Shown here: one piece after another, positions 502-22,908 of the stretch
Position numbering within the stretch: the stretch's first letter is position 1
Layout of the letters: every line of letters begins with the position of its first letter
From: a virus
Length of the DNA: 28,569 nt
Virus record (IMG/VR): IMGVR_UViG_3300028394_000255
Span: 1-28,569 of that record
Reading direction: 5' to 3' (one strand)
Program-made: the position numbers and the translations under genes
Notes under the pieces: model-generated
What the model was told of the DNA's origin: nothing
The model's database searches: none
What the model saw: the letters and a program-made list of their open reading frames with translations, nothing else

Positions 502-948
502 TTAAGCAGCTTCCCAAAGAAGTTTCTGCCCTCTAAGCAATTCATCCGTATCAATCCTTGGCCTGCTTTTGCAATTCCAATTGCCACCACCGCGCTCACC
601 CACGCAAGTCCAACCCGACGCCTTAAGACTAGCGCCGCCCTCTGCTGGCAACGTGTAGGTGATTAGTTTCTTATAACCCAATGCCTTAGCCGCACGCCAT
701 GCCGCGCCATACAGCATAGAGCAAGCGTTTTTGGTTCCGTCGGTGCAACAACGGTTTACCTCTAAAACCCAACCGTTGTCCAGATGCCTAGAAACCGGTC
801 TGCCAACAATTGCAACGCCAACAATTTTATCGCCGTCGCTTACGGCAATTGAAAACTTATGCCCAACCATAGGCTTATGGTGCCGATGATATATCTGCAC
901 AAAGGCATTAGATTCCTCTAATGTAATCGGCGTTATTGATAGAGGCAT
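502..948 (-). CDS. XF1762-family protein, GNAT-like fold
   Basis: This 148-residue protein begins MPLSITPITLEE and contains YHRHHKPMVGHKFSIAV, then a VVxVAIVGRPVSR-like strand, EVNRCCTDGT, and NACSMLYGAAWRAAKALGY. That is the layout of the phage and prophage family named after Xylella XF1762. The family is thought to share the GNAT acetyltransferase fold; its substrate is not known. I chose the ATG at 946-948 because longer frames enter a GC-rich non-coding leader and lose family similarity. No convincing Shine-Dalgarno sequence precedes it: the leader is AAAAACCCAA behind a T-rich tract. The stop overlaps the terL ribosome-binding site. It sits between direct repeats, which suggests later insertion in front of terL. 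The family call is fairly firm, the function is not. Confidence 0.8.
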   Translation of the reverse strand: MPLSITPITLEESNAFVQIYHRHHKPMVGHKFSIAVSDGDKIVGVAIVGRPVSRHLDNGWVLEVNRCCTDGTKNACSMLYGAAWRAAKALGYKKLITYTLPAEGGASLKASGWTCVGERGGGNWNCKSRPRIDTDELLRGQKLLWEAA

Positions 949-964
949 TTGGGTTTTTGCATAA
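947..964. repeat. 18-bp direct repeat, copy 2 (upstream of XF1762-family gene)
   Basis: This is an exact second copy of the terL start region. Read leftward it gives ATG CAA AAA CCC AAA and then runs out of frame into a stop after nine codons (962 to 933), so it is a decoy start overlapping the start of the XF1762-family gene. Confidence 0.9.
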
Positions 965-1221
965 AAAATAAAAAAAATTGGCGTGACCCCTCCGTCACCG
1001 TGACCGGTCGCCGTCGGCCCTACCCGGCCCTTGCCTTGCCGATTCGGTTTTTGCCTTGCGTCTAGGTTAACACGACGACGCGCCAAGACGACGCAAGCGC
1101 ATGGACGACTGATCGTCAATAGGGGTTTACCCTGCGACAGTGTGTCGCATTGGCGTGGTCGGGCGATGTTGGCACAGTGTGATCAAGCGCCAGGTGGCGT
1201 GTTAACAAAGGAGCAACGCAA
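965..1221. other. Divergent intergenic region between XF1762/terL and the rightward micro-gene island
   Basis: No convincing gene is seen here. A leftward T-rich tract (961-979) follows a weak GTGAC/GTCAC stem (983-987 with 994-998). GTCAC-C-GTGAC (994-1004) and GACCGGTC (1002-1009) are palindromes, and TTGCCTTGC occurs twice (about 1031 and 1051). A stronger palindrome lies at 1133-1149. I could not find a sigma70 promoter with good -35 and -10 elements in either direction. The GC-rich palindromes suggest regulator binding or a phage-specific promoter (inference). Confidence 0.5.
1133..1149. promoter_or_regulatory. Perfect 7-bp inverted repeat, candidate operator
   Basis: TGCGACA and TGTCGCA are perfect inverted arms around a 3-base centre GTG. 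The site lies 72 bases upstream of the first gene of the rightward island. Its size and symmetry suit a dimeric repressor. There is no T-tract on either side, so it is not an intrinsic terminator. Confidence 0.5.
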
Positions 1222-2485: not shown

Positions 2486-2534
2486 TTTCTCCCTAGGATG
2501 AAATCTTTAACGTAAAATCGTCCCGCATCGAAAA

Positions 2535-2643
2535 CGTAGCAACGTAGCACTCTAAAGAGTGTGCTACGTTTTGCTACGTTTTTTCTCGCCTTTGCCACAA
2601 CGTAGCAGCTACGCAATGCTACGCTATGCTACGTTTTGCTACG
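2535..2643. repeat. GCTACG repeat array (nine copies), candidate origin or packaging site
   Basis: GCTACG starts at 2563, 2573, 2608, 2618, 2628 and 2638; its complement CGTAGC starts at 2535, 2543 and 2601. Four copies (2608-2643) are spaced exactly 10 bp apart, as are 2563/2573. The first four copies form an imperfect dyad around TCTAAAGA, and 2601-2613 is a palindrome CGTAGC-A-GCTACG. The last copy contains the stop codon of the primase/helicase gene. The density and helical phasing look like protein-binding iterons. Its place between a replication gene and terS fits either an origin or a TerS recognition site. Confidence 0.85.
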
Positions 2644-4525
2644 CTAATTTTGCCCTCATAAGATCATCTGCAAACGATCCCTCTATGACGGCAAAACCCT
2701 TGTCTAGCTTTCCCACAATTTTAGCGTCCAGCAGATCACGCACAATTGACCCTTCCCTACCCGATGGTTTGAGCAATTGGTCTGCGTTTTTCTCGCTGGT
2801 GCCGTTTTCGATCATAAACGCCCGCAGATCGTCTCGGGCAATATAAGGCTGATCGTCACGCACCTCGGCCTTGCCGCAACCAAACCACGCACGCTTGAAA
2901 AACTTTTTGTGATCGTCCAGTTTGCTCCCTTTGGGTTGAGGCATCCTTAGATCGCCGTCCACGAAAAATGAGAACACGGCGCCATCAATCGGCAAACCAT
3001 CCTCGTCCACCCAACCGAGGCTAACCGGCTCAAGCCAACCATATCGCTCCGCTGGCTCTGGCGAGTCTTTCATCTTCGTGCAGCTAACCTTGATCTCATT
3101 CTTTTCGCCTGACACTAGGATGCTCGCGTCAAGCGCCCCGCGCCACGCGCTAGAACCTCTTGCACGCTGTTTTGACTCGCTACTGTGGCCCAGGTGGTGC
3201 ACAAGCATACTCGTCGCGCCTAGAGCCGTTGAGACGATATTGCAGGCATTGATCATGGCGCGGGTATCTTTGGCGCTGTTCTCATCGCCGCTCATATGGT
3301 TATTGAGGGTGTCAATGATCACCAACACCACGGTCTCGCCCGTCATCTCACGCACTGCCGCGATGATCCTAGCTGCAGCGCCGGGGCTATCCAGATCAAT
3401 CGCCTTGTTGCTGATCAACAGATTGTCCAACTGTTTTATGCCATGCTTAGCGCACCAGGCCGCGATCCGCTGGCGCATCCCGTAATTACCCTCTCCTGCC
3501 AGATAAACCACAATGCCTGGCTTGGTCTTGATCCCCTGCCACATCATGGCGCTGGCAATCGAACAGGCCATGTCAAGCGCCACAAAGGTTTTGCCCACGC
3601 CGGACTCGCCATAGATCATGCAAGTCCCATACGCTGGCAACCATCCCTTTATAACCCACGGGAGCGGGGCTGGTTGACCCAGGAAGCTCGTTGCGCGGGT
3701 GAGGTAATAATCAGATGTGGCCTGACTCTGATAATTGCTTAGAATCGCTTCTGCGGCCTCGTCGCCAAGTGCGGTGCTTGCCGCCACATCGTGATCTGGC
3801 TCGTACCTTGCGACGGATCGGGCGATCTGGGCAATTTCGCTGCTGGGCAATGGGATTTCGCAACGTGTTTCATTTGCAATACTGATTGCGGCCAAGATTT
3901 CGGCCTCGGACATCCCAAAATTACGCATGGACCCGGCAAGGCTAGTCAGCCCTGCGTTGCGGTTGCCTTTGATCAGATCGCCGTTGGTGGCGCTTTTGGT
4001 CTTGCGCTGACTGAGATGCGGCAGCCAGTTTAATGGGATGCTGCCAGGTGCGATGCCGTCAAATGGGTCGCTGCTGGCCTCCCATTCGTATGCTTTGCCT
4101 TCTACACTACTGGGGTGCGCCACAAAATATCGGCCATCGGACAGTAGATCAATGCCCTCGCGCAGCTTGCATGAGCGAATCCCTGACTGGTATGCGGCAA
4201 TATAGTGCTGCCCACCGCCTGCGGTGAGGGCCATCGCGCAATCTGGCGGTGAGCCATGCTCTGCAATCCAGCCCTGCCAACTTGTGTCGCCACCGTTGCG
4301 CGGGTCAATGTCAAACACCACAATGCCTGACTTTTCCCCTGCCGCAATGCCAATGTTGAAGTTGGGATTTTGGCCCCACCATGCTTTGATCTGCTCGGCA
4401 TCTGTTGTGGCGTCATGCACCCCATGCGCTGTGGCAGGGGTCTTGCCGTTGGGCACCACAGGCAGAACGTGCCAGCCCCAACTGGCGTAGGCCAAGGCTG
4501 CGTCAATCTTGCTCGTGGTCTGCAC
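2639..4525 (-). CDS. Primase-polymerase / RepA-type helicase fusion
   Basis: This 628-residue replication protein has an N-terminal Prim-Pol domain (about 1-180). It includes WGWHVLPVVPNGKTP, the acidic pair in VVFDIDPRNGGD (D72, D74) and GGGQHYI with the conserved His. A C-terminal RecA-like ATPase of the AAA_25/RepA type follows, with Walker A GESGVGKT (about 304-311), Walker B VVLVIIDT (about 398-405) and SMLVHHLGHS. It would make primers and unwind DNA at replication forks. The start is GTG (4523-4525), with AAGGAG 7 bases ahead, overlapping the end of cro. It is therefore read from the cro promoter. The stop lies in the GCTACG array. Confidence 0.9.
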   Translation of the reverse strand: MQTTSKIDAALAYASWGWHVLPVVPNGKTPATAHGVHDATTDAEQIKAWWGQNPNFNIGIAAGEKSGIVVFDIDPRNGGDTSWQGWIAEHGSPPDCAMALTAGGGQHYIAAYQSGIRSCKLREGIDLLSDGRYFVAHPSSVEGKAYEWEASSDPFDGIAPGSIPLNWLPHLSQRKTKSATNGDLIKGNRNAGLTSLAGSMRNFGMSEAEILAAISIANETRCEIPLPSSEIAQIARSVARYEPDHDVAASTALGDEAAEAILSNYQSQATSDYYLTRATSFLGQPAPLPWVIKGWLPAYGTCMIYGESGVGKTFVALDMACSIASAMMWQGIKTKPGIVVYLAGEGNYGMRQRIAAWCAKHGIKQLDNLLISNKAIDLDSPGAAARIIAAVREMTGETVVLVIIDTLNNHMSGDENSAKDTRAMINACNIVSTALGATSMLVHHLGHSSESKQRARGSSAWRGALDASILVSGEKNEIKVSCTKMKDSPEPAERYGWLEPVSLGWVDEDGLPIDGAVFSFFVDGDLRMPQPKGSKLDDHKKFFKRAWFGCGKAEVRDDQPYIARDDLRAFMIENGTSEKNADQLLKPSGREGSIVRDLLDAKIVGKLDKGFAVIEGSFADDLMRAKLA

Positions 4526-5411: not shown

Positions 5412-6083
5412 ATGGCTATCAAATTAAGACATACCGGCGAGGCGGGTGCCTTGACCGTGAAGTTGTTGGTGTATGGGCAAGCAGGGGCGGGCAAGACCAG
5501 CCTTATCCCTACCCTTCCCAACCCGGTAATCCTTTCTGCGGAGGGTGGCCTGCTCAGTATTGCGGACACCAACTTGCCGTTTATCGAGGTCGCCAGTATG
5601 GATGACTTGCGTGAGGCATATCAGTGGCTCACCAAGTCTGCCGAGGCGCAGGCTTTTGAATCGGTGGCGCTGGACAGTATCAGCGAGATTGCTGAGGTGG
5701 TTTTGAACACGGAAAAGAAAACCACAAAAGACCCACGCCAAGCCTATGGCGCAATGCAAGAGCAGATGGCCGACATCATCAGAGGGTTTAGGGACTTGCC
5801 CGGCAAGCACGTTTACATGAGCGCCAAACTGGAAAAGACTCAGGACGAAATGGGCCGGGTGCTATATGCCCCATCCATGCCTGGCAACAAGACGGGCCAA
5901 AGTCTGCCGTACTTCTTTGACGAGGTGCTGGCCTTGCGCGTGGAGAAGGACTCCGAGGGCAATGCTCGCCGCGCCCTGATGTGCGACTCAGATGGCCTTT
6001 GGCTTGCCAAGGATCGATCCGGCAAGTTGCAGGTTTGGGAGGACGCCGATTTGGGTGTGATCATCAAGAAGATTGGGGGTTGA
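5412..6083 (+). CDS. Sak4-like RecA-fold ATPase (AAA_24)
   Basis: This 223-residue single-domain ATPase has Walker A GQAGAGKT (residues 22-29), a following acidic site in PVILSAEGG (39-46) and Walker B-like VALDS (85-89). YMSAKLEKTQDE lies in the C-terminal half. This matches the phage nucleotide-binding family AAA_24, which includes Sak4, a RecA-like annealing protein that works with a phage ssDNA-binding protein. AGGAGAG precedes the ATG. The DUF669-type protein and nucleases downstream support a recombination role. It acts on ssDNA in the cytoplasm. Confidence 0.85.
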   Translation: MAIKLRHTGEAGALTVKLLVYGQAGAGKTSLIPTLPNPVILSAEGGLLSIADTNLPFIEVASMDDLREAYQWLTKSAEAQAFESVALDSISEIAEVVLNTEKKTTKDPRQAYGAMQEQMADIIRGFRDLPGKHVYMSAKLEKTQDEMGRVLYAPSMPGNKTGQSLPYFFDEVLALRVEKDSEGNARRALMCDSDGLWLAKDRSGKLQVWEDADLGVIIKKIGG

Positions 6084-22195: not shown

Positions 22196-22908
22196 TAGTA
22201 ATTACCCGCATATACGTTAAAGCGCTGCCTCGTCGCAACCAGCGAGTACGGCATAGCCATCACATCATCTGGATTGTTGATGCGCTTGATGTTGCGCTTG
22301 CTGGTCATGGCAATGCGCGTAACTTGCGGCGATGGCTCAACCCCAAACTCAGGGGCGATCTCCATAGCCAGATTGTAGACAAACGCCCGCAGATAGCCCG
22401 GTGGGAACGTCAGTGCCGTTGCAAGCGTAGCCGGTTGAGACAATTCCTCAACCGAAATAAAGTGCCATTCCAAAACCCGCGTTGGCTTTGGGTAGATGGT
22501 CATTGTGATATTGGGATACTCCATATTTATCCACATCACCTGTGGATAAGTGGAGGTAACCGTTTTAACAGCAATCCCGTCGTATTGCTGTTGATTGATA
22601 AACTTAATGCCGTAACTGACGTTAGTAGTCGGATCGCGGAAATAAGTTGAGTCATCCAGCAGGATCGGGCGATTGCCAACAAAGTCCCCACTTGGGCCAA
22701 GCGTCTGGGTGATTAACCCAGGAGTCCACAAGTAGGTTTGATCCTGCGTGTTAAACACCGACAAACGCTCGGTGTTCCACGATTCAATCATCTGGTTTAG
22801 CGCAGTCAACGAGTCCTGCGAAACAGATGGGCTAGGAGTCTCGCCCTCTGCCAGAACCCCAAGCAACCGCAATGCCCGATTGATTTGGTCACCGGCAGTT
22901 GTGGACAT
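22195..22908 (-). CDS. P22 gp4-like tail accessory factor
   Basis: This 237-residue protein with DQINRALRLLGVLAEGETPS, LTALNQMIESWNTERLSVF, PGYLRAFVYNLAMEIAPEFG and a C-terminal basic helix fits the P22_Tail-4 family, which seals the portal after packaging. It is longer than P22 gp4 through insertions in the middle (about residues 90-150). It is followed in the operon by the second known tail-closing protein, gp10-like, which supports the call. TAATG overlaps mark both ends. Confidence 0.86.
   Translation of the reverse strand: MSTTAGDQINRALRLLGVLAEGETPSPSVSQDSLTALNQMIESWNTERLSVFNTQDQTYLWTPGLITQTLGPSGDFVGNRPILLDDSTYFRDPTTNVSYGIKFINQQQYDGIAVKTVTSTYPQVMWINMEYPNITMTIYPKPTRVLEWHFISVEELSQPATLATALTFPPGYLRAFVYNLAMEIAPEFGVEPSPQVTRIAMTSKRNIKRINNPDDVMAMPYSLVATRQRFNVYAGNY

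Follow-up and report, generated by a model that had tools for sequence, protein, structure and literature searches.

The stretch of DNA analysed here, called the window throughout, is a viral contig from IMG/VR; it is 28,569 bp long and has no end repeats. On its minus strand, a primase-helicase gene (4525-2639) is followed by an array of short repeats, a gene for a TerS-like protein (2485-1940), a Mom-like gene and, beyond that, the beginning of TerL. The primase-helicase is a single protein of 628 aa that holds both a primase and a RepA-type helicase, with Pfam matches to Prim-Pol (E=4.4e-33), PriCT_1 and AAA_25 (E=1.2e-39) and a C-terminal domain of about 95 residues that has no Pfam match. 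The TerS-like gene starts about 50 bp past the array and matches its family weakly (phrog_309, E=2.4e-6). The DNA modification gene between TerS and TerL (502-1119, minus strand) is Mom-like by its match to phrog_1384 (E=3e-43).

The hexamer GCTACG occurs 22 times in the window compared to 9.8 +/- 3.0 expected, a count reached in 0 of 100 shuffles. Nine copies lie within 109 bp (2535-2643), which is the sole such cluster of GCTACG in the window. The original prediction, made from the window alone, had drawn attention to these nine copies, and both the count and the shuffles bear it out: when the whole window was Markov-shuffled 40 times, no hexamer exceeded 4 copies per 110 bp, so the observed cluster is not due to chance. 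Numbered from the primase end, units 1 to 4 (2638-2643, 2628-2633, 2618-2623 and 2608-2613, plus strand) form a run at 10-bp spacing, and the outermost copy, unit 1, overlaps the minus-strand TAG of the primase gene, in agreement with the predicted start of the array in that stop codon. Unit 5 (2601-2606, minus strand) is inverted, units 6 and 7 (2573-2578 and 2563-2568, plus strand) are a second pair with 10-bp spacing, and units 8 and 9 (2543-2548 and 2535-2540, minus strand) are inverted relative to the main run. It had also been proposed that one-turn spacing places all copies on one face of the helix. This holds within each run and fails across the nine copies, which do not share one helical phase because the two runs lie 35 bp apart and the inverted copies stand 7, 8 and 20 bp from their neighbours.

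Units 8 and 7 are the two arms of a hairpin whose core, read on the minus strand, is CACTC-TTTA-GAGTG (2548-2561). Two further elements on the minus strand are not repeats and are conserved in relatives: GGCAAAGGCGAG in the middle of the array (2585-2596), which is kept across unit types, and TTCGATGCGGG at the downstream edge of the array (2522-2532).

A conserved array build with group-specific unit letters

The window was compared with 80 related viral loci and with one circular phage from GenBank, MW202867; 81 distinct loci were analysed, the window included. An array of like build lies directly after the primase gene in 73 of the 81 and after one inserted gene in another 6. One of the remaining two is cut off inside the array by its contig end. 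The other is the single locus lacking an array and its contig ends 672 bp past the primase, so relatives that had lost the array and kept its flanking genes, which had been named beforehand as evidence against a functional site, were not found. The skeleton common to the relatives opens with direct units spaced at about 10 bp, or more tightly in some CGTAAC and CGTACC arrays. An inverted unit comes next, then a central box (GGCAAAGGCG, or GGACAAGGCG in the distant clade), further direct units and the hairpin. After the hairpin there is usually a pair of inverted units some 8 bp apart, and the last element is a CGATG box. The original prediction had suggested aligning this junction to see whether the hexamer and its spacing are retained. 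The skeleton with its spacing of roughly 10 bp is kept, and the letters of the hexamer differ by group. The unit reads CGTAGC (the reverse complement of GCTACG) in the group of the window, CGTCAC in both L010 and L012, CGTAAC in 45 loci, CGTACC in L022 and GGGACA in 20 loci. Within each array the unit letters are replaced throughout while the positions of the units, the central box, the hairpin and the right-hand box stay, and this build persists from 99% down to below 40% primase identity as the letters change.

Arrays with a hairpin were also found after the primase-RepA genes of more distant phages, several of which are cultured, with the units GGTTCA in Alteromonas phages PB15 and XX1924, GGTACA in Idiomarinaceae phage 1N2-2, CGTGAC in Rhizobium phages 16-3 and RHph_X2_25 and GTATAA in Roseobacter phage CRP-821. 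In each of these six the observed copy number was reached in 0 of 300 shuffles. Weaker cases were left aside (the share of shuffles that matched was 0.02 for Salicola CGphi29 and for a Salmonella houtenae record, and 0.003 for Roseobacter CRP-406 and for Vibrio 1.210). Not all such phages share the arrangement: six distant phages with a primase-RepA gene have no array within 430 bp of it: MW202475, MW202444, MW202711, Caulobacter GB2A, Microcystis Mae-JY30 and Mycobacterium Phelemich. Bacterial genomes searched with the primase and with the CGTAAC array core, as a host and prophage lookup, gave no match. A literature search, whose coverage was mostly of papers outside subscription, returned no description of such arrays.

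Several relatives carry a gene inserted between primase and array (L011, L015, L036, L043, L045, L055 and L063, and also L151 at 2499-3290), and the array is intact beyond it. In Vibrio phage 1.210 the inserted gene belongs to the phosphoadenosine phosphosulfate reductase family; those of L011 and L015 resemble it by eye.

Contigs unrelated to the window that carry at least three phased copies of TGCTACG (L024-L029, L031 and L034) were not used, and no adjoining primase was recognised in the two examined (L026 and L034). L026, an unrelated phage, has 14 head-to-tail copies of CGTAGCACCC exactly 10 bp apart (5902-6038; also in L028 and L029), roughly 1 kb ahead of the gene for a terminase small subunit, with no primase recognised beside the array. 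In L034, a 4.2-kb contig, a GCTACG cluster in both orientations (18-185) lies just upstream of an unknown gene and could be an unrelated origin or operator.

The hairpin stem varies with compensation

Ten hairpins from several groups, including the Rhizobium and Roseobacter phages, were aligned. Their stems were paired in 98.3% of cells, a somewhat inflated value since these hairpins were picked for a four-base loop, which favours paired stems, and several others have different loop lengths. The informative part of the set is the spread of differing stem letters: two-sided stem changes numbered 18 compared to 6.1 in shuffles, none of 500 of which reached the observed number, while the T(T/A)TA loop was kept across all ten. 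Selection for pairing or for dyad symmetry seems to act on the stem.

Other signs of an origin differ between clades. The GGGACA clade has a perfect DnaA box, TTATCCACA, 123-194 bp after the primase stop codon in 17 of 20 loci, and the box is rare elsewhere in those contigs. It overlaps the start codon of a small gene in most such loci and is found outside that context too (L101, L102 and MW202867). In the window, the search around the array returned no DnaA box and no clear AT-rich stretch, AT content being at most 62%. GC skew, suggested with the original prediction as a check, follows gene direction and is uninformative for an origin. Two perfect copies of TTATCCACA lie in the structural gene region of the window (22527-22549), in opposite orientation and 14 bp apart.

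Joint exchange of repeat letters and the primase C-terminal domain

We examined the C-terminal domain of the primase-helicase (about residues 534-628, encoded at 2642-2926 on the minus strand). A PDB sequence search with this domain gave nothing significant. The AlphaFold2 model (mean pLDDT 80) has the order H-E-E-H-H-H-E-E-H, and the homologous domain from the GGGACA clade was modelled with near-identical topology (pLDDT 83.5). A PDB fold search gave no match at E <= 0.001; many of the weak top matches were winged-helix proteins, e.g. TubR, MotA, FUR, and CRP-family and GntR-family regulators. The domain is predicted on this basis to be winged-helix-like, and we propose it as the part of the protein that would bind the array.

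The clearest exchange is seen between the window and L012, in which residues 1-530 of the primase are 98.9% identical, the C-terminal domain is 50.6% identical, every unit differs (CGTAGC vs CGTCAC) and TerS is 99% identical. The differing block of about 420 bp (2493-2916) takes in the codons of the C-terminal domain and the array, and its flanks are about 92% identical. L010 shares this state: relative to the window, the primases of both L010 and L012 are 99% identical over residues 1-530, a figure that falls to about 50% for the C-terminal domain. Both arrays read CGTCAC throughout. A second exchange, less cleanly bounded, separates L021 from L022, with 98.5% identity in the N-terminal part, 66% in the C-terminal domain, and CGTAAC vs CGTACC units. 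By comparison, in 757 pairs with the same unit and at least 88% identity in the N-terminal part, identity of the C-terminal domain averages 90% with a minimum of 70.5. Trees of the helicase core and of the C-terminal domain disagree, as expected from exchanges; the helicase core of L010 is identical to that of the window and its C-terminal domain is far from it.

TerS behaves differently. In L006-L008 the array and the C-terminal domain are kept and the N-terminal half of TerS is only 60-75% identical, and the gene after the array in relatives is often not terS: besides TerS, its product may be a ParB-type methyltransferase, a Zn-ribbon protein or another protein. The array as judged from these alignments goes with the C-terminal domain of the primase and not with TerS, because of the exchanges involving L012/L010 and L021/L022, the state of L006-L008 and the variety of genes that follow. 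At the right array edge, a ParB-type methyltransferase gene in L010 and terS in L012 follow an otherwise shared array; since different genes follow the same array here, its edge is a junction at which genes are repeatedly exchanged.

The domain-and-unit exchange was seen in two cases only, and as the C-terminal domain and the array adjoin, a single exchange could move both by linkage alone. A stronger argument for function is provided by the concerted change of dispersed, inverted units within a conserved skeleton, since scattered inverted copies split by unique conserved sequence would be hard to change in step unless they were read by a protein.

A probable initiator-binding site within a replication origin

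The original prediction left two roles for the array, a replication origin bound by the adjacent Prim-Pol/RepA-type protein or a packaging site bound by TerS. The comparison strongly supports the first, in that the array stays beside the primase and its letters change with the C-terminal domain of that protein and not with TerS. We consider it probable, at roughly 0.8, that the array is where the initiator binds within a replication origin, and that the neighbouring Prim-Pol/RepA-type helicase reads it through its C-terminal domain. From the sequence comparisons we infer a mechanism in which each CGTAGC(A) unit would be a binding site for the winged-helix-like domain of the helicase encoded upstream. 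The one-turn-spaced runs and the inverted units around the small hairpin would load the initiator next to its own gene, the helicase would then open the DNA, and the Prim-Pol domain would lay primers, possibly with the hairpin as a single-strand landmark.

An operator array, at which the primase C-terminal domain or another regulator would control how the primase or the downstream operon is transcribed and which would not take part directly in replication initiation, is unlikely. Phased dyads would suit cooperative repressors as well, the array lies between two genes on the same strand, and a Cro-like protein is encoded just upstream of the primase in several relatives. However, no sigma-70-like promoter was found in the region, the downstream gene is not conserved, the unit tracks the C-terminal domain of the primase, and a purely regulatory site after the gene would leave the hairpin unexplained. 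An autoregulatory role in addition to the replication role is possible.

The packaging role is less probable still. Pac sites are often in or near terS, and the proximity of the TerS-like gene to the array suggested a pac/cos site read by the TerS encoded downstream. We rejected this reading because TerS and the array vary independently, the units differing beside a nearly unchanged TerS in L012 and staying the same beside a diverged TerS in L006-L008, and because terS is often not the neighbour, the next gene frequently being that of the ParB-type methyltransferase, the Zn-ribbon protein or another and differing between L010 and L012 after one array.

Slightly behind this in probability, the hairpin and repeats might work at the RNA level, whether as a terminator or as some other element. 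The TTTA loop, which is fixed, and the compensatory changes in the stem would fit such a role, as would one weak terminator-like match on the plus strand, but it was rejected because no Rfam match was found and the stem is not followed by a T run on the strand of the primase, and it leaves the 10-bp phased copies outside the hairpin and the link to the C-terminal domain unexplained. A neutral repeat hitchhiking with the end of the primase gene, for which physical adjacency would account for the joint exchange with no function, is very improbable, given that the build is kept from 99% to below 40% primase identity while the letters change, dispersed inverted copies change in step, and the array is intact after gene insertions beside it.

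If the origin reading is correct, a large group of phages without an annotated replication start would have a recognisable origin, and inspecting the DNA that follows the primase-helicase gene would be enough to find it. Exchanges seen in nature would supply matched pairs of DNA-reading domain and site in which origin specificity is directly testable, and paired alleles could show which residues read which bases. We regard as an even bet the wider proposal that these loci represent an undescribed, widespread class of phage origin. Its specificity module would be exchanged as a cassette and would combine a TTTA-loop hairpin and hexamers phased at 10 bp with the winged-helix C-terminal domain of an initiator that is one piece, of the Prim-Pol or Toprim/RepA kind. 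With about ten hexamer types in use, phages infecting the same cell could keep clear of one another's initiators or origin decoys. Lambda growth is blocked when a cell contains additional lambda origins (PMC4488673). Escape from competing origins is, speculatively, a plausible driver, and changing origin type could pay.

Comparison with known origins

SaPI Rep and Cch belong to a helicase family other than AAA_25, the family of the helicase described here (E=1.2e-39). In SaPI Rep and SCCmec Cch2, a C-terminal domain binds repeats that lie immediately downstream of the helicase gene (PMC7581432). The present loci are alike in having repeats downstream of the helicase gene (79 of 81, plus one cut by a contig end), and here the C-terminal domain tracks the repeat letters. 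Unlike those systems, they combine primase and helicase in one protein, have units of 6-7 bp at 10 bp plus a hairpin, and belong to a tailed phage and not an island. The alpha protein of P4 is a single primase-helicase whose C-terminal winged helix binds origin repeats (as summarised in PMC4234260), which resembles the one-protein primase-helicase, predicted winged helix and candidate origin repeats found here. In contrast to the Toprim-type primase of P4, the N-terminus here is a Prim-Pol (E=4.4e-33) joined to a RepA-type helicase; the unit also differs, and here the array follows immediately after the gene.

In pRN1 ORF904, and in Bordetella phage BIP-1, a Prim-Pol protein with a C-terminal winged helix is followed directly by an essential stem-loop (PMC4234260), comparable to the Prim-Pol replication protein, predicted winged helix and downstream hairpin of the window. 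However, pRN1 has an SF3 helicase and a long stem-loop without iterons, and no specific binding was detected in it, whereas AAA_25 and iterons are found here. RSF1010 oriV combines a RepA-type helicase, a primase, iterons and small hairpins for priming (PMC4234260). A RepA-type helicase, a primase, iterons and a small hairpin recur here, with a different unit and spacing, but the roles of the three RSF1010 proteins RepA, RepB' and RepC are apparently combined in one 628-aa polypeptide. In lambda, the O gene itself contains the iterons, which have an AT-rich region next to them (PMC7466680). There, as with the putative initiator here, the protein is encoded next to its iterons, so that protein and site can be exchanged together; unlike the protein described here, O is neither helicase nor primase, and the present array comes after the gene, overlaps only its stop codon and reaches an AT content of no more than 62%.

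By the features compared, the array would work like the origins of SaPI Rep, Cch2 and P4 alpha while being a member of none of these systems. The proposed arrangement of an initiator with downstream iterons is of a known sort, but with a different helicase family.
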